A stretch of DNA of 10,295 nucleotides, taken from NCBI GenBank assembly GCA_012841845.1, contig DUTZ01000368.1, positions 1 through 10,295 of the forward strand, read 5' to 3'. Positions 1 to 10,295 of this stretch are shown here, one piece after another (position 1 is the stretch's first letter; every line of letters begins with the position of its first letter). The notes under the pieces are model-generated. The model was not told the origin of the DNA. It searched no databases and saw nothing but the letters and a program-made list of their open reading frames with translations. The stretch is from Actinomycetales bacterium (GTDB lineage Bacteria; Actinomycetota; Actinomycetes; Mycobacteriales; Mycobacteriaceae). The position numbers were made by a program, and so were the translations under genes.

Positions 1-1
1 C

Positions 2-967
2 CCCGTCCCGGTGGCCGATTCGCCGTTCCGGGACGTGTCCGGACCCGGCGGCGCCCACGTGCGGGAGGTCCGCCGGATCGACGAACGGACCTACCTGCTC
101 CACGTGTGGTCGCCGGCCAACGAGCGCACCCTCCGGGTGGGGATCATGGTCCCGCCGCCCGAGCTGGGACCGCGGCCGACCCTCTACTGCCTGGACGGCT
201 ACCAGGACTTCAGCCGGGAGGGCGAGGACGCGCTGGCCAGCGACTGGTACTGGTCCGGCGGCGGCCACGAGTTCTTCGGCGACAAGAACCTCAACGTCGT
301 CTTCACCGTCGACCCCGGGCCCACGATGTACCGCGACTTCCTCGTCCCCGTCCCCGGGCGGGGGCCGGTCCGGCTCGAGACCTTCCTCGCCGTGGAGCTC
401 CCGCCGCTCGTCGACGCGGCGTGCCGGGGCAACGGCACCAACGGGCTCATGGGGGTGTCGTCCGGCGCCGCCGCCGCGTTCATGACGGCGGTGCGCCACC
501 GCGGCAGGTACACGACCCTCGCCGGGTTCTCCGGCGTCTACGACGTGGCGAACGCCTTCGGCGCCGCGCTCTGGTCCGGGATGTGGCGGATGAAGGGCAT
601 CGAGCCGGAGTGGGTGATGGGCGTCGGGCTCACCGACCAGTGGCTCCGCTACGACCCCGGTCTGCGGCACAACGGCAACCTCCAGTCGCTGCGCGAGACC
701 ACCGTCTACCTCTCGGCGGCCGGCGGGCTCGTCCCCGGCGAGCCGTGGTCCCGGACGCGGTGGAACGCCGACCCCACGCTGTTCGGCGGCACGCTGGAGG
801 TCACCTCGTTCCACGCGACGACCCGCTTCGCGCACCTGCTGTCCACGGAAGGGGTGGACGTGACCGAGGACTACCGGCTGTCCGGGACCCACGACTGGCC
901 CCTGTGGCGGGAGCAGCTCCCGCTCGCGTGGCCCACGCTCGCCCGCGGCCTCGGGGTGCGTGGCTGA
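2..967 (+). CDS. Mycolyltransferase / antigen 85-family esterase (5' end cut by window)
   Basis: An alpha/beta-hydrolase of the antigen 85/corynomycolyltransferase family, which moves mycolic acids between trehalose mycolates and arabinogalactan outside the membrane. Counting from the GTG at 11, I see YCLDG (59-63, like YLLDG of Ag85), LETFLAVELP (122-131, like WETFLTSELP), the nucleophile elbow GVSSG with Ser150, an acidic residue Glu263 in GGTLEV, and GTHDW with His294 followed by PLW. These align with the Ag85 Ser126/Glu230/His262 triad, so the enzyme looks catalytically intact. No signal peptide is visible. The frame stays open to the window edge, and the codons before GTG read Pro-Val-Pro-Val-Ala-Asp, which looks like the region just after an exported protein's cleavage site. 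I therefore think the true start lies upstream and this is a 5'-partial gene. Exact substrate and paralogue cannot be assigned. The downstream metE-like gene has its own promoter-like box, so co-transcription is not required. Confidence 0.87.
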   Translation, partial: PVPVADSPFRDVSGPGGAHVREVRRIDERTYLLHVWSPANERTLRVGIMVPPPELGPRPTLYCLDGYQDFSREGEDALASDWYWSGGGHEFFGDKNLNVVFTVDPGPTMYRDFLVPVPGRGPVRLETFLAVELPPLVDAACRGNGTNGLMGVSSGAAAAFMTAVRHRGRYTTLAGFSGVYDVANAFGAALWSGMWRMKGIEPEWVMGVGLTDQWLRYDPGLRHNGNLQSLRETTVYLSAAGGLVPGEPWSRTRWNADPTLFGGTLEVTSFHATTRFAHLLSTEGVDVTEDYRLSGTHDWPLWREQLPLAWPTLARGLGVRG

Positions 968-1017
968 CCCGGACCGGGCGCCCGGCCGGACGCCCGCCGG
1001 GGCCGTCGCGCGGCCGC

Positions 1018-1023
1018 TACGCT
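1018..1023 (+). promoter_or_regulatory. -10 box of a probable leaderless promoter for the metE-like gene
   Basis: TACGCT fits the actinobacterial TAnnnT -10 consensus and ends 8 nt before the ATG at 1032. Transcription would start at or within a base or two of the start codon. No convincing -35 element and no Shine-Dalgarno sequence is seen. The box supports choosing the ATG at 1032 over the upstream GTG at 960. Confidence 0.5.
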
Positions 1024-1031
1024 GGGACGCC

Positions 1032-3332
1032 ATGAACGACGCCGCCGTCCGGGCGCACCTCGAACGCGATCGCGCCTCGAGCGTCCTGGGCTACCCGCGC
1101 ATCGGGCGCCGCCGCGAGCTCAAGCGCGCCCTCGAGCGGTACTGGCACGGCGACGGCACGGCCGCCGAACTGCGGGCGGTGGGCCGCCGGATCCGCGAGT
1201 CCACGTGGGACGACCTGCGTGCCCGGGGCCTGACCCAGCTCCCCGGGAACACCTTCTCCTTCTACGACCACGTCCTCGACGACGCGCTGCTCATGGGCGC
1301 CGTCCCCGGCCGCTTCCGGCGGCACGTCGAGGGCCTGGACCCCCTGGACCTGCAGTTCGCGCTGGCCCGCGGCCGGGCGGACGTCCCGCCGCTGGAGCTG
1401 GTCGCGCTCCAGGGCACCCCGTACCACTACCGGCAGCCCGAGTTCGAGGACTCCTCGCCGCTCGGGCTGCGCCCCGACGAGCTGCTCGCCGAGGTGGCGC
1501 GCGCCCACGAGCTGGGGCTGGAGATCCGCCCCGTCGTCACCGGCCCGGTCTCGCTGCTGCTGCTCGGCAAGGCCGCCCCGACCGCCGCCCCCGGCTTCGC
1601 GCCGCTCGCGCTGCTCGACCGCCTGCTCGACCAGTACGAGGCGCTGCTCGGGGTGCTCGCCGACGCGGGCGTCGTCTGCGTCCAGTTCGACGAGCCCTGC
1701 ATGACCATGGAGCGCACCCCGTTCGAGATCGGCCGGCTACACCACGCCTACGACCGGCTCTCGTCGGTGGCGGAGCGCCCGCGCATCCTCGTCACCGGCG
1801 AGTACGGCGACCTGGGCGAGGCGCTGCCCGAACTCGCGGCCACCGGGATCGAGGCGATCGGCCTGGACCTGGTCCACGGCCGGCGCGAGGCCGCCGAGCT
1901 CGCGGCCGTCCCCGGGCTGCGCGGCAAGCGGATCTACGCCGGCGTGGTGGACGGGCAGAACGTGTGGCGGACCGACACGTCCGCCGCCCTCGGCTACCTG
2001 CGGGAGCTCAAGGCGGAGTTCGACGACCTCGTGGTGTCCACCTCGTGCACCCTGCTCCACGTCCCCTACGACGTCCGCGCGGAGACCGACCTGCCGGCCG
2101 AGCTGTCCGACGCCCTCGCCTTTGCCGAGCAGAAGGTCGCCGAGGTGGTCTCGCTGGCCCACGCGCTCGTCGACGGCCCCACCCCGCGGTGGCGGCCCCT
2201 CCCGCTGCTGCCCAGTGCGCGCCGCGAGGACGTCCGGTCGCGGGTCGCCGGGGTCACCGACGCCGACCGCGTGCGGGCGCCGTACGCGCAGCGGGTCGAC
2301 CTGCAGGCCGCGCGACTGGGGCTGCCCCTCCTGCCCACCTCCACCCTGGGCTCCTTCCCGCAGACCGTGCAGATCCGCCGGGCCCGCCGCGACCTGGCCG
2401 ACGGCCGGATCGACTACGAGCGCTACCGCGAGTACCTGCGCGACGAGATCGCCGGGCTCGTCCGGCTGCAGGAGGACATCGGGCTGGACGTGCTCGTGCA
2501 CGGCGAAGTCGAGCGCAACGACATGGTCCAGTACTTCGCCGAGCTCCTCGACGGGTTCGCGGCCACCCGGCACGGCTGGGTGCAGTCGTACGGCTCCCGC
2601 TGCGTGCGCCCGCCGGTCCTCTACGGCGACGTGGCGCGGCCGGCACCCATGACGGTGGAGTGGACGGGCTACGCGCAGTCGCTCACCGACCGGCCGGTCA
2701 AGGGCGTGGTGACGGGCCCGGTGACGATGCTCGCCCGGTCCTTCTGCCGCACCGACCTGGCGCTGCCCGACGTGGCCACGCAGCTCGCCCTGGCGGTGCG
2801 CGACGAGGTGGCCGACCTCGAGGAGGCGGGCATCGCGATCATCCAGATCGACGAGCCCGCGATCCGCGAGCTGCTGCCCCGGCGCGGCGCCGACCGGCGG
2901 GCCTACCTCGAGTGGGCCGTGGGGACCTTCCGGCTGGCCTCCGCGGGGGCCCGCCCGGACACGCAGATCCACACCCACCTCAACTACTCGTCGCTGCGGG
3001 TGATGAAGGAGGCGATCGAGGACCTCGACGCCGACGTCACCGCGATCGTCGCCACCCGCTCGATCGACTGGGTGCTCGAGGCGCTCGGGGACCACACCCT
3101 CACGCGGCAGGTCGCGCCGGGCGTGTACGAGTCCCGGTCGGCGTTCGTCCCGGACATCGACCTGCTCCACGACCGACTCCGGACGGGGGTGGCCACGGTG
3201 GGGGAGGACCGGCTCTGGGCGGTGCCCGACGGCGGGCTCAAGACCAGGCACACCTGGCAGTTGGAGCCGAGCCTGCGCAACCTCGTCACCGCGGCGAGAC
3301 GAATCCGCCGGTCGGTTGCCCGGGACGGCTGA
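1032..3332 (+). CDS. MetE-family (cobalamin-independent methionine synthase) homologue lacking most zinc ligands
   Basis: A 766-residue homologue of MetE, which transfers the methyl group of 5-methyltetrahydrofolate polyglutamate to homocysteine in the cytoplasm. Length and two-barrel layout are normal (E. coli MetE has 753 residues). The N-terminal half carries LGYPRIGRRRELK (19-31), FDEP (219-222) and LVHG (280-283). The C-terminal half carries LGSFPQT (439-445), HGEVERNDM (490-498), GWVQSYGSR (515-523) and QIDEP (605-609). The substrate residues matching E. coli Glu484 and Asp599 are kept as Glu492 and Asp607. Of the zinc ligands only the histidine remains (His649). The positions of Cys643, Glu665 and Cys726 hold Asn651, Val673 and Gly734. 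The ATG at 1032 was chosen because homologues begin near this point and TACGCT sits 8 nt upstream; a GTG at 960 would add 24 low-complexity residues and overlap the previous gene. Family membership is certain; methionine synthase activity is doubtful. I leave the symbol empty for that reason. Confidence 0.9.
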   Translation: MNDAAVRAHLERDRASSVLGYPRIGRRRELKRALERYWHGDGTAAELRAVGRRIRESTWDDLRARGLTQLPGNTFSFYDHVLDDALLMGAVPGRFRRHVEGLDPLDLQFALARGRADVPPLELVALQGTPYHYRQPEFEDSSPLGLRPDELLAEVARAHELGLEIRPVVTGPVSLLLLGKAAPTAAPGFAPLALLDRLLDQYEALLGVLADAGVVCVQFDEPCMTMERTPFEIGRLHHAYDRLSSVAERPRILVTGEYGDLGEALPELAATGIEAIGLDLVHGRREAAELAAVPGLRGKRIYAGVVDGQNVWRTDTSAALGYLRELKAEFDDLVVSTSCTLLHVPYDVRAETDLPAELSDALAFAEQKVAEVVSLAHALVDGPTPRWRPLPLLPSARREDVRSRVAGVTDADRVRAPYAQRVDLQAARLGLPLLPTSTLGSFPQTVQIRRARRDLADGRIDYERYREYLRDEIAGLVRLQEDIGLDVLVHGEVERNDMVQYFAELLDGFAATRHGWVQSYGSRCVRPPVLYGDVARPAPMTVEWTGYAQSLTDRPVKGVVTGPVTMLARSFCRTDLALPDVATQLALAVRDEVADLEEAGIAIIQIDEPAIRELLPRRGADRRAYLEWAVGTFRLASAGARPDTQIHTHLNYSSLRVMKEAIEDLDADVTAIVATRSIDWVLEALGDHTLTRQVAPGVYESRSAFVPDIDLLHDRLRTGVATVGEDRLWAVPDGGLKTRHTWQLEPSLRNLVTAARRIRRSVARDG

Positions 3333-3334
3333 CC

Positions 3335-3346
3335 GTCTAATAGACT
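3335..3346 (+). promoter_or_regulatory. Promoter -10 region with overlapping palindrome, upstream of the 3410 gene
   Basis: TAGACT (3341-3346) matches TAnnnT and would start transcription near 3353, leaving a leader of about 57 nt. A TTGCCC at 3316-3321 could be the -35 element but the 19-bp spacer is long. A perfect 11-bp palindrome, GTCTA-A-TAGAC (3335-3345), overlaps the -10 box and begins 3 nt after the metE-like stop codon. It could be a small operator. Promoter and operator roles are inferred from sequence only. Confidence 0.4.
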
Positions 3347-3409
3347 CGGAACCATTCAGGCCCGGGCCGGACGGTCCGGGGTCGGCAGTGGACGAAAGAG
3401 GACCCGAAC

Positions 3410-3727
3410 ATGGCCGGTCAGACCCTCGAGCACACCGGTGCCGCCATCGTCGAGGAGTACTACCCCGAGTACGCCGAGACCAAGGCGCCCGTCTACCCGC
3501 TGTACTCCGACCTCGTCTACATCGGCTCGGCCGTCATCCTGCTGAGCATGGCCATGCTCGGCCTGCCCATCACCGCGCTCGGGTACGCCATCGACCCGCT
3601 CGCCGAGGGCGTCTCCATGGGCCTGGCGATCTTCGCCGTCGTGGCCAACGTCGTCGTCTTCCTCTTCGGCCTCGGCCTCTGCATGGCGGGCTTCAAGCGG
3701 CACAAGCGGCCGGACGAGCACCACTGA
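3410..3727 (+). CDS. Small two-helix membrane protein of unknown function
   Basis: A 105-residue protein that I do not recognise. Residues 1-34 are acidic and rich in tyrosine and proline (EEYYPEYAETK). Two hydrophobic segments follow, roughly 35-58 and 69-95, joined by a short loop containing Asp62 and Glu66. The tail is KRHKRPDEHH. The basic residues after the second helix suggest that both ends face the cytoplasm. The ATG at 3410 is preceded by AAAGAGGA (3395-3402), whose GAGGA core lies 7 nt upstream, so the start is well supported. Only 20 nt separate its stop from the proposed start of the DUF445 gene, so the two are probably one transcript and may act together in the membrane. No catalytic motif is visible and I infer no function. 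Confidence 0.8.
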   Translation: MAGQTLEHTGAAIVEEYYPEYAETKAPVYPLYSDLVYIGSAVILLSMAMLGLPITALGYAIDPLAEGVSMGLAIFAVVANVVVFLFGLGLCMAGFKRHKRPDEHH

Positions 3728-3747
3728 CCCGGCGTCCTGACGGGCCC

Positions 3748-5037
3748 GTGGTCCAGGCCGACACGACGCCCGCGCTGCGGGCCGGGGACCCGGACACCGA
3801 TGCCGAACGGAGGGTCGCCCTCCGGCGGATGAAGATCGTCGCGACGGGATTCCTCGTCGTCGCCGGCGTCATCTACCTGATCGCCGAATACGCCCTGCAC
3901 AACGGCGCCGACCCGTGGGTCGGCTACGTCCGTGCCGCCGCCGAGGCCGGCATGGTCGGCGGTCTCGCCGACTGGTTCGCCGTCACCGCCCTGTTCCGCC
4001 ACCCGCTGCGGATCCCCATCCCGCACACGGCGCTCATCCGCAAGAAGAAGGACCAGCTCGGGTCCTCCCTCGGGTCCTTCGTGGGCGAGAACTTCCTCGA
4101 CCCGGAGATGGTGAGCGAGAAGGTCCGCAGCGCCCGGATCCCCGAGCGCGCGGGGGAGTGGCTGCAGGACGACGAGCACCGCCGTCTCGCCTCCGACCAG
4201 GCCGCCAAGGCCATCCGCTCCGTCCTCGCGGTGCTGCGGGACGAGGACGCCGTGGCGATCATCGAGCGCACCATCGTCGCCCGCATCGCCGAGCCGCAGT
4301 GGGGGCCGCCCGCGGGGCGCATCCTCGACGAGCTCCTCGAGGAGGGGCGGCACCTGCCGCTGCTCGACCTCATGGCCGACCGCGCCCACCAGTGGGTCGA
4401 GGCCAACCCGGCCACCATCGACCGGTGGGTCACCGAGAAGGCCCCCACCTGGGCGCCGCAGTTCGTCAACGAGCTCCTCTCCGACCGCGCCTACCGCGAG
4501 CTCAGCGAGTGGACGTGGCAGATCAAGGTGGACAAGCAGCACGGGGTGCGCCTCGCCCTGATCGGCTTCGTCCGCGACTTCGCCCGGGACCTCCAGGAGG
4601 ACCCGGCCACCATGGCCAAGCTCGAGGTGTTCAAGCACGAGGTGATGAACCGCGAGGAGGTCCGGCGCGCCGCCGGCTCGGCGTGGGCCGCGGCCAAGCG
4701 GATGATCGTCGAGGCCACGGAGGACTCCACGTCCACGCTGCGCGTGAAGATCGACGACCTGCTGCGCCGGCTGGCCGACATGCTCGTCGACGACGCGCGG
4801 TTCCGCGGCCGGCTCGAGGGCTACATGACGCGCACCGCCGCCTACGTCGCCGAGAACTACGCCGGCGAGGTCACCTCGATCATCTCGGAGACCGTCGAGC
4901 GGTGGGACGCGGACGAGGCGTCGGAGAAGATCGAGTTGCTCGCGGGCAAGGATCTGCAGTTCATCCGCATCAACGGCACGGTCGTGGGGGCGCTGGCGGG
5001 GCTCGTCATCCACTTCGTCACCACCCTCGTCTTCTGA
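3748..5037 (+). CDS. DUF445-family membrane protein
   Basis: A 429-residue member of the DUF445/YjiN family, whose biochemical role is not established. A hydrophobic helix lies at about 29-50. The family signature follows, GGLADWFAVTALFRHP (71-86), then PIPHTALI and KKKDQLGSSLGSFVGENFL (99-117). A long charged, helical middle part continues to about 395, and the protein ends in a second hydrophobic segment (NGTVVGALAGLVIHF and on). The two membrane segments therefore bracket a large soluble helical domain. The frame is open further upstream, but the GTG at 3748 gives the usual family length and the N-terminal pattern expected (ADTTPALRAGDP). No good Shine-Dalgarno sequence precedes it, so the start is the least certain part; coupling to the gene ending at 3727 could explain this. 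From memory, M. tuberculosis Rv0473 holds the same place before the Rv0474-hbhA pair. Confidence 0.85.
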   Translation: MVQADTTPALRAGDPDTDAERRVALRRMKIVATGFLVVAGVIYLIAEYALHNGADPWVGYVRAAAEAGMVGGLADWFAVTALFRHPLRIPIPHTALIRKKKDQLGSSLGSFVGENFLDPEMVSEKVRSARIPERAGEWLQDDEHRRLASDQAAKAIRSVLAVLRDEDAVAIIERTIVARIAEPQWGPPAGRILDELLEEGRHLPLLDLMADRAHQWVEANPATIDRWVTEKAPTWAPQFVNELLSDRAYRELSEWTWQIKVDKQHGVRLALIGFVRDFARDLQEDPATMAKLEVFKHEVMNREEVRRAAGSAWAAAKRMIVEATEDSTSTLRVKIDDLLRRLADMLVDDARFRGRLEGYMTRTAAYVAENYAGEVTSIISETVERWDADEASEKIELLAGKDLQFIRINGTVVGALAGLVIHFVTTLVF

Positions 5038-5083
5038 GCCGCGGTGGTGTGACGGATCGCACGCCGGAGGGCGCCCCGGACCG

Positions 5084-5114
5084 CTTGCTGGAGTTAGCAC
5101 AGCTTGCTAGCGTT
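5084..5114 (+). promoter_or_regulatory. Promoter and candidate operator of the XRE regulator-hbhA unit
   Basis: TTGCTG (5085-5090) and TAGCGT (5108-5113), 17 bp apart, form a good sigma-70-type promoter with a start expected near 5120. Two repeat systems overlay it. One is a 12-bp imperfect direct repeat, CTTGCTGGAGTT (5084-5095) and CTTGCTAGCGTT (5103-5114), 10/12 identical and 19 bp apart, one copy over each promoter element. The other is an inverted repeat TAGCA-5 nt-TGCTA (5095-5109) between and over the elements. This is a layout expected for a repressor site, most simply of the XRE regulator encoded next. Binding is inferred. Confidence 0.6.
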
Positions 5115-5145
5115 GAAGGCAGACGGTAACCGACGAGGACGAATC

Positions 5146-5150
5146 GGAGG
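5146..5150 (+). promoter_or_regulatory. Ribosome binding site that fixes the start of the XRE regulator
   Basis: GGAGG lies 8 nt before the ATG at 5159, ideal spacing. An in-frame GTG at 5150 overlaps this site by its first base and cannot be served by it, so translation should begin at 5159. Confidence 0.75.
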
Positions 5151-5158
5151 TGGACGAC

Positions 5159-5662
5159 ATGGCCGACAGGAGCGACGAGGCCCGGCAACGGGACGAGGCG
5201 CAGGCGGCCGGGACCACCACCGAGCCGACGGCCGGCACCCTCGCGCGGCGGGACAAGCCCACGGGCGACGTCCCCCGCCCGGGTGACGACCGGAAGCGCT
5301 CGTCCGAACCGCAGGACATCGGCTCGTTCATCCGCGCACAGCGGGAGGCGGCCGAGGTGTCCATCCGGCAGCTCGCCGAGCGTGCCGGTGTCTCGAACCC
5401 GTACCTGAGCCAGATCGAACGCGGACTGCGCAAGCCGTCCGCCGAGGTCCTGGGACAGATCGCCAAGGGACTGAGGTTGTCCGCGGAGGTGCTCTACGCT
5501 CGCGCGGGAATCCTCGAACTGAGGGAGGGGAGCCCGGTGAGGGACGCGATCCTCACCGCCCCGGACCTCACGGAACGGCAGAGGGAGGTGCTCGTGGAGA
5601 TCTACGAGTCGTTCGTTCTCAACAACGCGACCGCCGCCGACACGGTCGTCGACGTCCCCTAG
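5159..5662 (+). CDS. XRE-family HTH regulator (Rv0474 / MLDSR-like)
   Basis: A 167-residue DNA-binding regulator. The first 50 residues are charged, low in hydrophobics and probably disordered. A cro/C1-type helix-turn-helix spans about 53-115: IGSFIRAQREAAEVS, then RQLAERAGVSNPYLSQIERG (70-89) containing the HTH, then RKPSAEVLGQIAKGL. A short helical C-terminal part (116-158) may serve dimerisation or ligand sensing. The HTH block is the type found in M. tuberculosis Rv0474, which sits directly before hbhA. From memory, Rv0474 has been reported as copper-responsive, and the Rhodococcus counterpart MLDSR controls the lipid-droplet protein MLDS and responds to long-chain fatty acids. Here too the next gene is the HBHA/MLDS-like gene, 83 bp away. 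The repeat-rich promoter at 5084-5114 suggests autoregulation. Ligand is unknown. Confidence 0.88.
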   Translation: MADRSDEARQRDEAQAAGTTTEPTAGTLARRDKPTGDVPRPGDDRKRSSEPQDIGSFIRAQREAAEVSIRQLAERAGVSNPYLSQIERGLRKPSAEVLGQIAKGLRLSAEVLYARAGILELREGSPVRDAILTAPDLTERQREVLVEIYESFVLNNATAADTVVDVP

Positions 5663-5675
5663 GGGCGCCGGCGGC

Positions 5676-5689
5676 GGCCCGGAAGGGCC
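5676..5689 (+). terminator. Short GC hairpin between regulator and hbhA (weak terminator or attenuator)
   Basis: A 5-bp stem GGCCC/GGGCC closes a GGAA (GNRA) tetraloop, 13 nt after the regulator stop codon. No U-tract follows. It is too short to be a sure terminator but could trim or partly attenuate read-through, or stabilise the hbhA message. Confidence 0.3.
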
Positions 5690-5712
5690 ACGCACCACCA
5701 GCGAGACAGAAG

Positions 5713-5721
5713 TAGCACAGC
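5713..5721 (+). promoter_or_regulatory. TAGCACAGC motif shared with the regulator promoter
   Basis: This 9-mer is identical to 5095-5103 in the promoter of the upstream regulator and lies 24 nt before the hbhA start codon. In such GC-rich DNA, two exact copies in two neighbouring regulatory gaps suggest a second binding site of the same regulator. Chance remains possible, because similarity does not extend far beyond the 9 bases and the inverted partner TGCTA is missing here. Confidence 0.3.
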
Positions 5722-5745
5722 CAGACCACGACACGAGGAGTCATC

Positions 5746-6804
5746 ATGGCCGCTCAGCAGAAGCCCACCGCCAAGAAGGCCGCCGCCAAGAAGCCGGCTG
5801 CCAAGAAGTCGCCCGCCAAGACCGCCGCCAAGGCGCCCACCAAGGGCCAGGCCGCCAAGAAGGTCTCGGCGTCGGGTAAGACCACCCCGCGCAAGTCCGT
5901 GGCCAAGGACCCGGCGTTCGACGGCAAGTTCGGTCAGGCCTTCGCCGCCGTCCGCACCCCGGTCTACGCCTACATCGGCGTCAACGACCTCGCCGTCGAG
6001 GCCGTCTCCGGTCTCGTCGCCGACCTGCGTCGTCGCGCCGAGGAGGCCGTCGCCGAGGCGCAGAACCGCGTCACCGACGCGCAGACCAAGGTCACCGAGA
6101 CGGTCGCCGACGTGCAGCGTCAGGCCGCCGAGGTGCCCGAGCGCGTCCAGGCCCTCCCGGCCGAGCTCGAGGAGCTCGTCAACAAGTACCGCCCGGAGGA
6201 GCTGCGCAAGGTCGCGGAGGCGTACGTTGCCGTCGCCGCCGGCATCTACAACGGTCTCGCCGCCCGCGGCGAGGACGTGGTGACCCGCCTGCGCGAGGAG
6301 AACCCGCAGCTCGAGGCCGGCCTGCAGCGCGTCAACGAGCAGGTCAACCGCGCCGCCGGTGTGGTTGACGAGCAGGTCGAGCTCGGCGAGGAGGCCCTCG
6401 GCACCGTGGCCCGCCAGACCCGGTCGATCGGCGTCAAGGCCGCCGGCCGCGTGTCCAAGGCCGCCCGCAAGGCCGCCGAGGTGACCGGCGACGCCGCCGA
6501 CCAGGCCGCGGACGCGGTCGATGAGGCCGCCTACGCCGTCTCGGACGAGATCCAGAGCGGCGCGGCCAAGGTCGAGGCCCGCACGGGCACCACCAAGGCC
6601 CCGGCCAAGAAGGCGCCCGCCAAGAAGGCTCCGGCCAAGAAGGCCGCCGCGAAGAAGGCCCCCGCCAAGAAGGCGGCCCCGGCCAAGAAGGCGACCACGG
6701 CCAACAAGCCGGCGTCCACGTCGACCTCGGCCACCCAGGCCGCCGACAAGCCGGCCTCGACCGGCACCACCGGCAGCCAGGCCGCGTCCGACGACAAGAA
6801 GTGA
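5746..6804 (+). CDS. hbhA: Heparin-binding hemagglutinin (HBHA) / lipid-droplet protein MLDS homologue with two lysine-rich regions
   Basis: A 352-residue HBHA-family protein. In mycobacteria HBHA is a surface adhesin that binds heparan sulfate through lysine-rich C-terminal repeats. In Rhodococcus the homologue MLDS coats lipid droplets and tethers DNA. The family core runs from about 66 to 235: VRTPVYAYIGVNDLAVEA, then LRRRAEEAVAEA and a long heptad-like helical stretch, RPEELRKVAEAY (149-160) and LGEEALGTVARQTRSIG (213-229). These match M. tuberculosis HBHA closely. C-terminal KAPAK-type repeats fill 284-316. Two oddities: residues 6-39 form a second lysine/alanine/proline repeat region before the core, and a 36-residue Ser/Thr/Ala-rich tail follows the C-terminal repeats, so these are internal. 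The protein is far longer than the 199-residue M. tuberculosis form. There is no signal peptide, as in HBHA. GAGGAG at 5735-5740 lies 5 nt before the ATG. It probably shares a transcript with the regulator upstream. Confidence 0.88.
   Translation: MAAQQKPTAKKAAAKKPAAKKSPAKTAAKAPTKGQAAKKVSASGKTTPRKSVAKDPAFDGKFGQAFAAVRTPVYAYIGVNDLAVEAVSGLVADLRRRAEEAVAEAQNRVTDAQTKVTETVADVQRQAAEVPERVQALPAELEELVNKYRPEELRKVAEAYVAVAAGIYNGLAARGEDVVTRLREENPQLEAGLQRVNEQVNRAAGVVDEQVELGEEALGTVARQTRSIGVKAAGRVSKAARKAAEVTGDAADQAADAVDEAAYAVSDEIQSGAAKVEARTGTTKAPAKKAPAKKAPAKKAAAKKAPAKKAAPAKKATTANKPASTSTSATQAADKPASTGTTGSQAASDDKK
5761..5862 (+). repeat. N-terminal lysine-rich repeat of the HBHA-like protein
   Basis: Encodes residues 6-39, with the five-residue units KPTAK, KAAAK, KPAAK and KSPAK followed by a looser K-A-P-T stretch. 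The DNA repeats around gccaagaag. The composition resembles histone H1 tails and the C-terminal repeats of the same protein. Confidence 0.75.
6595..6693 (+). repeat. C-terminal KAPAK repeat of the HBHA-like protein
   Basis: Encodes residues 284-316 as units KAPAK, KAPAK, KAPAK, KAAAK, KAPAK, KAAPAK and KA, a 15-nt basic period with silent variation and one codon insertion. In M. tuberculosis HBHA the equivalent repeats bind heparin and are lysine-methylated. Such tracts can change copy number by slippage. Confidence 0.85.
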
Positions 6805-6830
6805 CCGGCCGCGCCTGACCGCGCGCCACA

Positions 6831-6874
6831 CGACGCCCCCGGCCCGCTTCGCGAGAAGCGGACCGGGGGCGTCG
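6831..6874 (+). terminator. Strong hairpin terminator after hbhA
   Basis: The 12-bp arm CGACGCCCCCGG (6831-6842) pairs with 6863-6874, and CCGCTTC (6844-6850) pairs with 6855-6861 across one C-A mismatch. The loop is GCGA (6851-6854), a GNRA tetraloop. The stem is about 19 paired bases and starts 26 nt after the hbhA stop. No U-tract follows, as is common in actinobacteria. It separates the regulator-hbhA unit from the next promoter. Confidence 0.85.
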
Positions 6875-6877
6875 CCC

Positions 6878-6895
6878 GTCGACACCGTCGACACC
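6878..6895 (+). repeat. Tandem 9-bp repeat upstream of the DUF2516 gene
   Basis: GTCGACACC is present twice, back to back and identical. It lies between the hbhA terminator and the next promoter, about 50-67 bp before the expected start of transcription, where an activator could bind. No factor can be named. Confidence 0.45.
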
Positions 6896-6931
6896 GCGGG
6901 TCTCGGAGGGCGGGGCCCGGCCGGGGGCGCC

Positions 6932-6937
6932 TACACT
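6932..6937 (+). promoter_or_regulatory. -10 box of a probable leaderless promoter for the DUF2516-merR operon
   Basis: TACACT fits TAnnnT and ends 7 nt before the GTG start codon at 6945. No Shine-Dalgarno sequence is present. A 10-bp palindrome CCCGGCCGGG (6916-6925) lies in the spacer region, where MerR-type regulators commonly bind, but its GC-only content makes it weak evidence. Confidence 0.55.
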
Positions 6938-6944
6938 GACCCCT

Positions 6945-7226
6945 GTGATCGACTCGTTGCCCGGGGTGTGGAACCAGGTCCTCTCGGTGGTGCGCCTGGC
7001 GCTGGTGGCGTGGGCCCTGGTGGGCCTCGTCCTGGCCGTGCTGCCGCCGGCCTCCGCGTACACGATGGAGGGCAAGTGGCCCAAGCCGGCGTGGATCGCG
7101 ATCTGCGCCGTCGCGGCCATCGCCTTCTGGCTGGCACCGCTGAGCATCCTCGGCCTCGTCGCCATGGTGGCCGTGGGCGTGTTCTTCGCGGACGTCCGGC
7201 CCGCGGTGGGTGGCCTGCGCAGATGA
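6945..7226 (+). CDS. DUF2516 family membrane protein (Rv0476-like)
   Basis: A 93-residue integral membrane protein of unknown function. A first hydrophobic segment covers about 13-34. A polar stretch AYTMEGKWPKPAWIAI (38-53) follows, the best-conserved part of this small family as I recall it. Further hydrophobic residues run to about 83, probably two short helices, and the protein ends in VRPAVGGLRR. It begins with GTG directly downstream of a -10 box, consistent with leaderless translation. In M. tuberculosis Rv0476, a protein of this type, lies directly after hbhA, so the neighbourhood supports the assignment. The stop codon overlaps the next start codon as ATGA, so the regulator that follows is translationally coupled to it. 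Confidence 0.8.
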   Translation: MIDSLPGVWNQVLSVVRLALVAWALVGLVLAVLPPASAYTMEGKWPKPAWIAICAVAAIAFWLAPLSILGLVAMVAVGVFFADVRPAVGGLRR

Positions 7227-7936
7227 GCCCGGCGCCCAGGGGTGCGCCCCTCCAGCGCGTCGAGGAACTGGCGGAGAGCGCCGGTTCCACGGTGCGCAAC
7301 ATCCGCGTCTACCAGGAGAAGGGCCTCCTCCCGCCGCCGATCCGGCGCGGCCGCACCGCGCTGTACGGCCCCGAGCACCGCCGCCGGCTGACGCTCATCC
7401 TGCGGCTGCTCGACCGCGGCTACACGTTCGCGACCATCGACGAGCTCTTCACCGCCGAGCGCCACGGTCTGTCGCTCACGGACCTCATCGAGGCGGAGAA
7501 CTCGCGCGCGCTCCGCCGGTCAGGGGGCGCCCGCCGCCGCTTCACCCGGACCGACGCCGAGGCGGTCGCGGGCTTTCCGATGCCCCCCGAGCTGCTCGAG
7601 ATGGGGACCGCGATCGGCCTGGTCAGCGAGCCCGGGGCCGACGACGAGTTCTTCGCCGACGCCCACATGTACGAGATGTTCCGCGAGGTGGTCCGCCTGG
7701 GCCTCGACGCCGAGGGGGTCACACGGATCGGGGACCTCGTCCTCGAGGGGCAGGCCCGGTCGGCGGAGGCGATCGACGTGGTGGTCCGGGCCCTGCGGGA
7801 GGCGGGGCTGGACGACGCGCGGATCGAGGAGCGCGTGAACGCGCTCCTGGCGAGCGCGTCGGCGGCCGTCCGCCGGATCTTCCTCTCCGCCGTCGCCGCG
7901 CTCCTCGCCGAGCGTCACGGCATCACGAGGCCCTGA
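7223..7936 (+). CDS. MerR-family transcriptional regulator
   Basis: A 237-residue regulator. The N-terminal winged HTH of the MerR family spans about 9-80: RVEELAESAGSTVRNIRVYQEKGLLPPP (12-39), RRGRTALYGPEHRRRL (41-56) and LLDRGYTFATIDELF (62-76). The rest, about 110-230, is helical and acidic and is probably a dimerisation/effector part that I do not recognise. It contains no cysteine, so it is unlikely to be a thiolate metal sensor or a SoxR-type iron-sulfur sensor. Its ATG overlaps the stop of the DUF2516 membrane protein (ATGA), which couples the two and suggests a functional link, for example control of its own operon. From memory, M. tuberculosis has a different gene (Rv0477) at this place. 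It converges with purU. Confidence 0.88.
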   Translation: MSPAPRGAPLQRVEELAESAGSTVRNIRVYQEKGLLPPPIRRGRTALYGPEHRRRLTLILRLLDRGYTFATIDELFTAERHGLSLTDLIEAENSRALRRSGGARRRFTRTDAEAVAGFPMPPELLEMGTAIGLVSEPGADDEFFADAHMYEMFREVVRLGLDAEGVTRIGDLVLEGQARSAEAIDVVVRALREAGLDDARIEERVNALLASASAAVRRIFLSAVAALLAERHGITRP

Positions 7937-7975
7937 CCGGGCCGGCCCCGGCCCCGGCCGTGGGCGGGGGTCAGG
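7932..7975. terminator. Possible bidirectional terminator between merR-like gene and purU
   Basis: CCTGACC (7932-7938) pairs perfectly with GGTCAGG (7969-7975). The two arms contain the stop codons of the converging genes, and the 30 nt between them are almost only G and C and can pair further. No U-tract is present. Three of the seven pairs follow automatically from facing TGA codons, so evidence is moderate. Confidence 0.4.
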
Positions 7976-8837
7976 TGAAGACGACGGTGCGGTCGTCGTG
8001 CACCAGGACGCGGTCCTCGAGGTGCCAGCGCAGCCCGCGCGCCAGGACCAGCCGCTCGGCGTCGCGGCCCTGCCGCACCATGTCCCGCACGGTCGCGGTG
8101 TGGTCGACGCGGATGACGTCCTGCTCGATGATCGGCCCCTGGTCGAGGTCCGCGGTGACGTAGTGGCACGTGGCCCCGATGAGCTTGACGCCGCGGGTGT
8201 GCGCCTGGTGGTAGGGGCGCGCCCCCACGAAGCTCGGCAGGAAGCTGTGGTGGATGTTGATCGCCCGGCCGGCCCACCGGGTGCACAGGTGGTGGGGCAG
8301 GACCTGCATGAACCGGGCCAGGACGATCGCGTCCGGGTCGAGGTCGTCGACGAGCGCCGCGACCTCCTCGAAGGCCGGCCCGCGCTCGGACGGGTCCGCC
8401 GGGAACGGCACGTGGTGGAACGGCACGCCGTGCGCCTCGGTCATCCCGCGCAGGTCGTCGTGGTTGCCGATCACGGCGCGGATCCGGGCCGGGAAGTCGC
8501 CGCCCTCGACGCGACCGAGCAGGTCGTGCAGGCAGTGGCCCTCCCGGGACACGAGGATCACCACGTCCTTGGGCTCGCTCGAGTCGGCGATGTGCCAGTC
8601 CGTCTCCGGGCCCAGCTCGCCGGCGACGCGCTCGAACCGGCGGCGCAGCTCGTCGAGCTCCATGCCGATCGAGTCGGCGTCCACGGCCTGGCGGGTGAAG
8701 AACCAGTGGGAGTCCTCGTCCGCGTGGTAGGCGGCCTCGACGATGGTGCCGCCCAGCTCGGCGAGGAACGTGGCGAGGCGGGCGACGATGCCGATGCGGT
8801 CGGGACAACCCAGCGTGAGGACGAAGCGGCGTGACAT
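7971..8837 (-). CDS. purU: Formyltetrahydrofolate deformylase
   Basis: A 288-residue cytoplasmic enzyme that hydrolyses 10-formyltetrahydrofolate to formate and tetrahydrofolate, balancing one-carbon pools and supplying formate for purine synthesis. An N-terminal ACT domain covers about 4-80 (VLTLGCPDRIGIVARL at 6-21). The formyltransferase-fold domain follows, with KDVVILVSREGHCLHDLL (90-107), GNHDDL (124-129), INIHHSFLPSF (193-203) and the loop LDQGPIIEQDV (231-241). The catalytic triad of the fold is present as Asn194, His196 and Asp232. Length matches the family. The ATG at 8837 is chosen because the ACT domain starts right after it; a further in-frame ATG would add 20 unrelated residues and overlap deoC on the other strand. 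It is transcribed away from deoC. In E. coli PurU is regulated by methionine and glycine through the ACT domain; whether that holds here is unknown. Confidence 0.93.
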   Translation of the reverse strand: MSRRFVLTLGCPDRIGIVARLATFLAELGGTIVEAAYHADEDSHWFFTRQAVDADSIGMELDELRRRFERVAGELGPETDWHIADSSEPKDVVILVSREGHCLHDLLGRVEGGDFPARIRAVIGNHDDLRGMTEAHGVPFHHVPFPADPSERGPAFEEVAALVDDLDPDAIVLARFMQVLPHHLCTRWAGRAINIHHSFLPSFVGARPYHQAHTRGVKLIGATCHYVTADLDQGPIIEQDVIRVDHTATVRDMVRQGRDAERLVLARGLRWHLEDRVLVHDDRTVVFT

Positions 8838-8845
8838 GGCTGCCC

Positions 8846-8851
8846 ATTCTG
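8846..8851 (-). promoter_or_regulatory. Possible -10 box for purU
   Basis: On the minus strand CAGAAT ends 8 nt before the ATG at 8837. It matches TAnnnT except for the first base. No Shine-Dalgarno sequence is evident, so purU too may be leaderless. Weak on its own; the equal spacing in neighbouring genes adds some support. Confidence 0.35.
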
Positions 8852-8878
8852 CCAGCAGGGGCCGGCGGGCCGTCCGGT

Positions 8879-8884
8879 TAGGCT
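8879..8884 (+). promoter_or_regulatory. -10 box of a probable leaderless promoter for deoC
   Basis: TAGGCT fits TAnnnT and ends 6 nt before the ATG at 8891. There is no Shine-Dalgarno sequence. It shares the 53-bp divergent gap with the purU promoter. Confidence 0.5.
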
Positions 8885-8890
8885 GGCCCC

Positions 8891-9580
8891 ATGGCACCCA
8901 CCCCGCTCACCAGGTCCCGCGTGGCCGCGATGATCGACCACACCCTGCTCTCCCCGGACGCCTCCCGCGAGGACGTCGCGGCGCTCGTCGAGGAGGCGCG
9001 CGAGCTGGGCGTGGGCGCCGTGTGCGTGAGCCCCGCGATGCTGCCGGTGCGCGGCGAGGGGCTCACCGTGGCGACCGTCGCCGGCTTCCCCTCCGGCAAG
9101 CACCACGCCCTGGTCAAGGCCATGGAGGCCCGGCTCGCCGTGGACCAGGGGGCCGACGAGGTGGACATGGTGATCGACGTGGGCGCCGCGATCGCCGGGC
9201 TCGTCGACGAGGTGATGGCCGACGTCCTGGCCGTCCGCGACGCCGTGCCGCCGCCCGTCCGGCTCAAGGTGATCCTCGAGACCGCCGCGATCCACCGCGC
9301 GCTCGGCGACGAGGCGGGCGACGAGCGCATCGAGGCCCTCTGCCACGCCGTGGCCCGCGCCGGGGCGGACTACGTCAAGACCTCCACCGGGTTCCACCCG
9401 GCCGGCGGGGCGAGCGTCCGCGCCGTCGAGGCCATGCACCGCGCGATCGGAGGCCAGGTGGGCATCAAGGCCTCCGGCGGCATCCGCGACGCCGACACCG
9501 CGTGCGCCATGATCGACGCCGGCGCCACCCGCCTCGGCCTCTCCGGCAGCCGCGCGGTGCTCGAGGGCTTCGCCGACTGA
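8891..9580 (+). CDS. deoC: Deoxyribose-phosphate aldolase
   Basis: A 229-residue class I aldolase that splits 2-deoxyribose 5-phosphate into glyceraldehyde 3-phosphate and acetaldehyde, for catabolism of deoxynucleosides in the cytoplasm. The TIM-barrel motifs are all present: [11 protein letters not shown] (15-25), GFPSGKH (65-71), [10 protein letters not shown] (90-99), LKVILET (125-131), DYVKTSTGF (160-168) with the Schiff-base Lys163, and IKASGGIRD (192-200) with the second active-site Lys193. Asp92 corresponds to the proton-relay Asp102 of E. coli. Length is typical of the short actinobacterial form. The gene is divergent from purU and converges with the DUF2993 gene after 13 bp. As I recall, deoC lies close to hbhA in M. 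tuberculosis too. No other deo genes are in the window. Confidence 0.95.
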
Positions 9581-9597
9581 CCCGACCGGGCCGTCAG
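9577..9597. terminator. Possible small bidirectional terminator between deoC and the DUF2993 gene
   Basis: CTGAC (9577-9581) pairs with GTCAG (9593-9597), again using the two facing stop codons. The 11-nt interior adds only a CC/GG pair. Short and without a U-tract, so low confidence. Confidence 0.25.
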
Positions 9598-10295
9598 GCC
9601 GAGGGCTCGAGCACCACGTCGGTGCCGGCGATGTCCAGTACCAGCCCGCCCTCGACCACGCGGGCGCCGGTGATCTCCACGCCGTCGGGCAGCTCCGCGA
9701 GCGCGGAGTCCATCATGGACACCGTCCCGCCGAGCAGCCCGTCCGGCAGCGGGAACCCCAGGACGGAGGCCTGCTCGGGGTCCATCTGGAGGCGCCCGCC
9801 GGGGGCGATGCGCGGCGTGACCGTGGCCTCGGCGAGCCCCAGGTCCACCAGGAGCGTGCCCGCCCCGGGATCGGAGGCCACGGACTGGACCTGCACCAGC
9901 CCGCCGAGCAGCGTCTCGGAGGCCTCCTGCTGCGCGGCGGCCGTCATCATCTGGTCGGAGGCGAACACGGTCCCGGCGAGGGACTCCACGAGCGTGCGGT
10001 CGCCGGCCTCGCGCACGCCCTCGGCGGTGATGTCGATCGCGGGCGCCGGCTCGCCCGCCCCGTCCGGCGTCCGCCCGTCGGTGGTGATCCGGACCGAGCC
10101 GAGCGTGTCGTCGAAGACCGAGAGCAGCATGGGGCGCGGCCCGATGTCCACCTGGGCGGTCGAGCCGAGCGCCTCCGAGGCCTCCCGCTGCAGGCGCTCG
10201 CCGATGTTGTTGCGAAGCCCCAGCTCGACGCCGACCAGGCCCACCACCAGCAGGAGCACGAGCCCCGCCGCGACGAGCGCGGCGGTGCGGCCCCG
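9594..10295 (-). CDS. DUF2993 / LmeA-like membrane-anchored protein (5' end cut by window)
   Basis: The visible 233 residues belong to the DUF2993 family. LmeA of M. tuberculosis is the known member: a cell-envelope protein that binds phosphoinositides and is needed for lipomannan elongation. Reading from the window edge, RGRTAALVAAGLVLLLVVG and a few more residues form one hydrophobic segment with basic residues before it, a membrane anchor or uncleaved signal. ERLQREASEALGSTAQVDIGPRP follows, then a beta-rich body with PMLLSVFDDTLGSVRI and FPLPDGLLGG near the C terminus, the spacing expected of this lipid-binding fold. A GTG at 10259 is inside the hydrophobic segment, and the frame is open to the window end, so the true start lies outside. 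The gene converges with deoC after 13 bp; in M. tuberculosis the membrane protein gene Rv0479c has this position, but I cannot confirm that it is the orthologue. Confidence 0.8.
   Translation of the reverse strand, partial: RGRTAALVAAGLVLLLVVGLVGVELGLRNNIGERLQREASEALGSTAQVDIGPRPMLLSVFDDTLGSVRITTDGRTPDGAGEPAPAIDITAEGVREAGDRTLVESLAGTVFASDQMMTAAAQQEASETLLGGLVQVQSVASDPGAGTLLVDLGLAEATVTPRIAPGGRLQMDPEQASVLGFPLPDGLLGGTVSMMDSALAELPDGVEITGARVVEGGLVLDIAGTDVVLEPSA

Follow-up and report, generated by a model that had tools for sequence, protein, structure and literature searches.

The contig DUTZ01000368.1 from assembly GCA_012841845.1 (Mycobacteriaceae), of which positions 1 to 10,295 were analysed (the window), encodes a full-length homologue of the B12-independent methionine synthase MetE that has lost three of the four catalytic zinc ligands. 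The zinc-less protein is a MetE paralogue by fold and descent and belongs to an old, well-conserved side branch of this enzyme, and the tree described below indicates that this paralogue of mycolic-acid bacteria arose once. A changed chemistry is very probable. The zinc site is lost, new active-site residues are present, genes of the glyoxylate shunt lie next to the gene and a relative is apparently induced by sulfur starvation, and a different reaction is probable because of these features together. A role in sulfur limitation is rather probable. We favour to a similar degree the fuller reading that a neofunctionalised, metal-free MetE paralogue acts with a changed reaction on an amino acid resembling homocysteine when sulfur is limiting.

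The longer open reading frame (P0001) starts with GTG and spans 960-3332 on the forward strand, and a 766-residue database copy of the same protein (P0002) matches the start at ATG 1032. The conserved region begins at about residue 40 of P0001. Residues are numbered here in the 790-residue frame, which is the count of the initial annotation from ATG 1032 plus 24. Both barrels are present, with PF08267 and PF01717 each matched over nearly the whole domain length. Where functional MetE has His-Cys-Glu-Cys, the window protein has H673, N675, V697 and G758, encoded by CAC at 2976, AAC at 2982, GTC at 3048 and GGC at 3231. The initial annotation had reported exactly these codons and residues, and its alignment was sound, as the motifs HTH[LIM]x, DADV and PD[GC]GLK anchor the homologues in the alignment. 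The GC content at third codon positions is 0.98 in the zinc-less gene and 0.97-0.99 in four neighbouring genes.

The remaining active-site residues were surveyed in 40 zinc-less and 10 canonical sequences first and then in 120 relatives. These 120 are the most similar ones listed from a protein search with the catalytic half, in which 8000 relatives were scored, and are not a random sample. The homocysteine pocket, with the equivalents of Ser433, Glu484 and Asp599 of E. coli, is present in the window protein and in all 120 relatives. Arg547 and Arg550 are likewise unchanged in all of them, and Arg52 and Lys55 are kept in all 115 that cover these positions. The Lys that bonds to O4 of the pterin is K or R in 95 of the 120 and Ala in the window protein. 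The Trp that stacks on the pterin and the His of the DIHSP motif are both Arg in the window protein, and the clade motif at the DIHSP position is ESRS[AG]. Beyond what the initial annotation had observed, two further catalytic positions are therefore replaced. Four of the five lost positions carry nearly fixed replacements (V, G, R, R), and only the position of Cys643 varies. The residue roles follow the parts of PMC539065 and PMC7857596 (section 11) that were consulted; in the former, the DMV loop connects the homocysteine and folate sites of T. maritima MetE and the DIHSP His is the candidate acid. Since the zinc site, the stacking Trp and the His are lost and the pocket is intact, the binding scaffold appears to have been kept and the chemistry replaced. 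Because of the Trp-to-Arg and His-to-Arg swaps, it is doubtful that the protein performs ordinary methyl-folate chemistry.

Table 1. Features of the zinc-less MetE paralogue and of neighbouring genes in the window; residues are numbered in the 790-residue frame and counts refer to the 120 listed relatives.
Feature	Position	Strand	Remarks
Zinc-less MetE paralogue	1032..3332	+	766 residues from ATG 1032; 790 residues from GTG 960
N-terminal barrel, PF08267 Meth_synt_1	1077..2018	+	Pfam match, P0001 residues 40-353
C-terminal catalytic barrel, PF01717 Meth_synt_2	2331..3299	+	Pfam match, P0001 residues 458-780
Ser465, homocysteine carboxylate contact (E. coli S433)	2352..2354	+	kept 120/120
Glu516, homocysteine amino-group contact (E. 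coli E484)	2505..2507	+	kept 120/120
Asp521-Met522-Val523, DMV loop	2520..2528	+	D and M invariant (120/120); position 3 is V in 62, I in 58
Arg593 for the pterin-stacking Trp (T. maritima W539)	2736..2738	+	Arg in 117/120
Asp631, homocysteine amino-group contact (E. coli D599)	2850..2852	+	kept 120/120
His673, sole retained zinc ligand (E. coli H641)	2976..2978	+	120/120
Asn675 for zinc ligand Cys643	2982..2984	+	variable in the clade: T, G, S, N, A, P, E, Q; C in 0/120
Val697 for zinc ligand Glu665	3048..3050	+	V 119/120, I 1/120
Glu-Ser-Arg-Ser-Ala (724-728) for MetE Asp-Ile-His-Ser-Pro	3129..3143	+	Arg726 replaces the candidate acid His, 120/120
Gly758 for zinc ligand Cys726	3231..3233	+	120/120; L027, a clade member outside the 120, has Phe
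Esterase-family (PF00756) gene	11-967		directly upstream of the zinc-less gene, overlaps the longer MetE frame; start of the window contig
PurU-like formyltetrahydrofolate deformylase (ACT and formyl transferase domains)	7971-8897	-	few genes downstream of the zinc-less gene

The loss of the zinc site extends over a whole clade. Among the best 120 of the 8000 relatives the zinc positions read H-x-V-G (one H-x-I-G) and HCEC did not occur; Dietzia, Rhodococcus, Nocardia and Segniliparus are among the sources given by name. As the same ligands are lost in all 120 listed proteins from many assemblies, chance and sequencing error are ruled out; against the latter the initial annotation had argued from the codons. 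A tree was calculated with a quick method from 95 of 135 tblastn matches, after partial rows, rows with stops and near-copies had been dropped. The 60 zinc-less proteins among these full-length sequences lay on one side of a branch with a support of 100 in the Shimodaira-Hasegawa-like approximate likelihood ratio test (SH-aLRT) and a long stem of 0.82. They thus form a single group, as had been asked for homologues of the Asn/Val/Gly type, and the zinc-less branch was placed among the canonical MetE proteins of other Actinomycetota. Of 201 genomes in the GTDB family of the window, 117 contain a match to the pattern W..PDGGLK, which is a lower bound because the pattern misses variants such as L027 (PDFGLK); a similar type of pattern was used for the canonical copies. 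When 296 genomes drawn from the class were searched, all 3 matches fell within the window's family (25 of the 296), and clade members were seen only in this mycolic-acid family. Within the clade, the Hoyosella-Speluncibacter-Tomitella group (L044, L049, L060, L124) makes up one main branch, which may represent an intermediate stage or a second functional shift.

The zinc-less branch is under strong purifying selection and shows no decay. In five Rhodococcus genomes of the group around protein P0057 (10 pairs for each gene, Nei-Gojobori method), the zinc-less gene had a pairwise ratio of non-synonymous to synonymous substitutions (dN/dS) of 0.011-0.027, compared with 0.049-0.072 in the canonical gene. 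The window gene gave a dN/dS of 0.17-0.34 against seven Dietzia genes (dS 0.49-0.80) and of 0.45 against one Rhodococcus-type gene (L123), values that are less reliable because of the strong codon bias. The gene had been thought to be maintained, and with a clade-wide branch under strong purifying selection this holds more firmly than was claimed.

The AlphaFold2 model of the window protein had the MetE fold, with a predicted local distance difference test score (pLDDT) of 89.4 and a predicted template modelling score (pTM) of 0.87, and it matched closed MetE at 1.9 A over 741 residues. The cut-off of 929.95 of the MetE profile TIGR01371 was not reached by the window protein (809.6) and by P0057 (881.8). 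For a control, three canonical copies of the same family were scored and passed with 1017.8-1063.9. Judged by this cut-off and by its active-site features, the zinc-less protein would fail as a functional MetE.

The link to sulfur is drawn through five genomes in which the zinc-less protein shares 99-100% identity with P0057. Given this identity to a protein of Rhodococcus sp. WS1, we take these genomes to belong to the R. erythropolis/qingshengii group. Apart from the start Met, their zinc-less protein contains 7 Met and 2 Cys; their canonical copy has 4 Cys and 7 Met. A second search showed no other cluster with more than 88% identity to P0057 among the 120 listed rows; none of these rows names R. 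erythropolis or R. qingshengii, and the rows fit with the proteins of these species lying in the P0057 cluster. In the two genomes examined, G238 and G125, mshA was located 37 kb from the zinc-less copy (35-36 called genes), and the canonical copy 3.3 Mb or 0.7 Mb away. The consulted parts of PMC8557817 describe one MetE of Rhodococcus qingshengii IGTS8, IGTS8_peg5907, that contains only 2 Cys and 7 Met and whose abundance is 190-273-fold higher in cultures on dibenzothiophene than in those on sulfate; mshA is peg5948, 41 locus numbers from it. Because the Cys count and the map position of mshA in the relatives match, IGTS8_peg5907 is most likely the zinc-less protein. The authors read it as a sulfur-sparing MetE, and concluded that sulfur-starved Rhodococcus makes methionine by MetE instead of MetH. 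If the assignment is true, this published reading has to be revised, and a protein that is abundant and strongly induced in biodesulfurising cells probably has a reaction other than the one published.

We propose that the paralogue abandoned zinc catalysis and took on a new task for which no metal is needed. An amino acid resembling homocysteine or methionine would be bound by its head group via S465, E516 and D631, and R593 together with R726 would hold an anionic group where the zinc-thiolate and the methyl-pterin meet in MetE. This group could be the thiolate, sulfinate, sulfonate or carboxylate of the amino acid, or it could come from an anionic partner. A transfer or cleavage would then help the cell to acquire or redirect sulfur or one-carbon units when sulfur is limiting. 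That the substrate is an anionic amino acid held by the arginines is a tentative suggestion that we would rather doubt. The clade might also be described as a metal-free sulfur-limitation enzyme branch beside the glyoxylate-shunt genes, which performs either an Arg-based, zinc-independent thiol methylation or a reaction on an anionic sulfur amino acid (homocysteine sulfinate or sulfonate); this is a possibility to be kept in mind, though we lean away from it.

Several observations weigh against the favoured reading. Not every clade member shows the Arg swaps: in the Hoyosella-Speluncibacter-Tomitella group, of which five members were checked, position 593 is L or F in P0084, P0091 and P0114, L049 has F593 and retains the His at 726, L060 has L593, and all five carry T637 in place of the pterin-binding Glu. 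L027 has F at 758. The folate-tail residues and the pterin-binding Glu (116 of the 120) are retained, and folate may therefore still be a substrate. The broader MetE model of NCBI, NF003556, accepts the window protein (881.3 bits, cut-off 541), as it does all five proteins scored, two zinc-less and three canonical. Finally, peg5907 was assigned by count and map position in relatives and not by its own sequence.

The neighbouring genes allow an alternative, in which the main role lies in carbon or one-carbon metabolism together with isocitrate lyase and FadB2, in growth on glyoxylate, acetate or fatty acids, and the sulfur link is secondary or mistaken. The loci were read with a simple purpose-made gene caller (minimum 70 residues). 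Of 64 distinct zinc-less loci, 60 had fadB2 as the gene directly upstream, compared with 0 of 39 canonical ones. Two of the other four start at the locus end, one is the window, and L033 has icl adjacent, where fadB2 was probably missed by the gene caller. The gene before fadB2 was icl in all 31 loci where it was labelled; in 26 the frame at this place carried no label, mostly because a short locus ended within it, and in the remaining 3 the gene was off the locus. A RamB-like gene was found on the opposite strand beyond icl in many zinc-less loci. In L107 the neighbours exceeded the cut-offs of the NCBI models for isocitrate lyase, 3-hydroxybutyryl-CoA dehydrogenase and RamB, with 766.9, 523 and 859.2 bits, respectively. 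The short or overlapping spacing to fadB2 in several Gordonia, Williamsia and Dietzia loci also speaks for a carbon role. However, in the eight Rhodococcus-type loci that were folded, including L107 and L123, a hairpin parts fadB2 from the zinc-less gene and would permit separate expression. Paired changes occur in 11 of its 21 pairs. It has no clear T run, and a terminator, a processing site or an operator are candidates for it. In addition, the sole proteome link is to sulfur, according to the parts of PMC8557817 consulted, and we regard a main role in carbon metabolism as unlikely.

Another alternative is that the protein is still a methionine synthase, but a zinc-free one, in which the arginines stabilise the homocysteine thiolate and which serves as a Cys-poor back-up in sulfur, zinc or oxidative stress. 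This would explain why the homocysteine pocket and the folate-tail residues are kept, and, if the IGTS8 assignment holds, a protein with only 2 Cys is induced under sulfate starvation, in line with the sulfur sparing proposed in the consulted parts of PMC8557817. Sparing of Cys leaves the loss of Glu, His and Trp unexplained, however, and the zinc-ligand, pterin-Trp and candidate-acid positions are all changed. The distribution of the genes points the same way. The 117 zinc-less genomes had MetH only (44), canonical MetE and MetH (71) or canonical MetE only (2), and in none was the zinc-less copy the sole methionine synthase, although only 11 of the 201 genomes were without MetH, 9 of them also without the zinc-less copy. 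A canonical metE or metH therefore accompanies the zinc-less gene in all 117 genomes, a point that the initial annotation had left to be checked. Canonical MetE was no rarer beside the zinc-less copy (73/117) than in its absence (47/84). A strictly zinc-sparing paralogue, one of the earlier suggestions, finds no support because catalytic residues that do not bind zinc are changed as well and no genome depends on the zinc-less copy alone. We consider a zinc-free methionine synthase clearly improbable.

The canonical copies are also set apart by their location and control. They lie elsewhere in the genome and not at the icl-fadB2-zinc-less locus, and a cobalamin riboswitch was found before 7 of 8 scanned, five of these from near-identical genomes. 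The exception was L120 of the Segniliparus genome G028, which gave no MetH match. The eight zinc-less stretches L107, L117, L119, L126, L050, L123, L124 and the window, with its upstream side cut by the contig end, gave no Rfam match for a riboswitch at the gathering threshold. In the window's genome itself, a fragment of an HCEC MetE lies at the end of contig C339 (L001), and a MetH domain is encoded on C267.

A further alternative is a MetE that has lost catalysis and serves in binding or regulation, as an amino-acid or folate sensor or as an enzyme partner. Such a protein would retain the binding residues and lose those for chemistry, as is seen here, but the nearly fixed R, R, V and G at four lost positions suggest new chemistry and make this explanation a rather remote one. 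Recent decay or a sequencing error in one genome, which could only be derived from the window's own sequence (its source genome is 78% complete, in 606 contigs, with contamination put at 2%), and likewise the early loss of activity considered in the initial annotation, are contradicted by the clade-wide loss and the strong purifying selection, and the former was ruled out.

Compared with MetE (TIGR01371/PRK05222; T. maritima, C. albicans, A. thaliana, E. coli), the zinc-less protein has one zinc ligand left of four and lacks both the Trp that stacks on the pterin and the His of the DIHSP motif, and its gene is located after icl-fadB2 with no cobalamin riboswitch found. Price et al. (PMC7857596, parts consulted) described MesB-like Chloroflexales proteins without the zinc residues (FSHG, YCDQ, YREQ) and proposed another function for them. 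These are also relatives of the MetE catalytic barrel that have not kept the zinc ligands, but they are single-barrel core proteins with other residues from another phylum, whereas the zinc-less clade is full-length and has the signature H-x-V-G / ESRS[AG]. Uroporphyrinogen decarboxylase and related methyltransferases of the same barrel superfamily are 11-14% identical to the zinc-less protein, which is a lead on metal-free chemistry and not evidence of membership. A published account of the zinc-less clade was not found among the papers listed by searches of the open-licence PMC literature; in the parts consulted, PMC13352529 has no mention of MetE, PMC9426449 mentions MetE and MetH only generically and PMC6461909 compares the occurrence of MetH and MetE. 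Sources that name zinc-less proteins were seen to call them methionine synthase (MetE). On this basis, 44 of the 201 family genomes would be credited with B12-independent methionine synthesis from a protein without the catalytic zinc site. The clade is a clean natural case in which a well-studied zinc enzyme changes its catalytic centre and keeps the substrate pocket.

In the window's genome icl and fadB2 are on another contig, C385 (L130). The place of the esterase gene of the window is occupied by fadB2 in other Dietzia loci. A species-specific insertion between fadB2 and the zinc-less gene is possible, because the window contig opens with the esterase gene and icl-fadB2 is on C385. The PurU-like gene is a possible one-carbon link to the zinc-less gene. 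The half-sites TAGAC/GTCTA, which we take to be an McbR-like motif, were seen upstream in 2 of 34 loci queried, with one half-site in L117 and both, not in motif order, in L023.

Some further observations concern methionine synthases in single genomes. In Dietzia G004 (L140, 7818-12501) a canonical HCEC metE lies behind a cobalamin riboswitch and adjoins, on the opposite strand, an apparent DtxR-type regulator and a metal ATP-binding cassette transporter, named from their translations only. Dietzia G017 has neither full-length MetE kind and has MetH. Since neither MetE kind nor MetH was matched in G213 (genus g3), this organism may be auxotrophic for methionine or rely on a different synthase. 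Short MetE-like frames of 350-627 residues and about 30% identity (e.g. G002:C1:2297387-2298028) occur in 15 of 23 genomes of the window's genus. They are distantly related to the catalytic barrel and are possibly core methionine synthases such as MesD.

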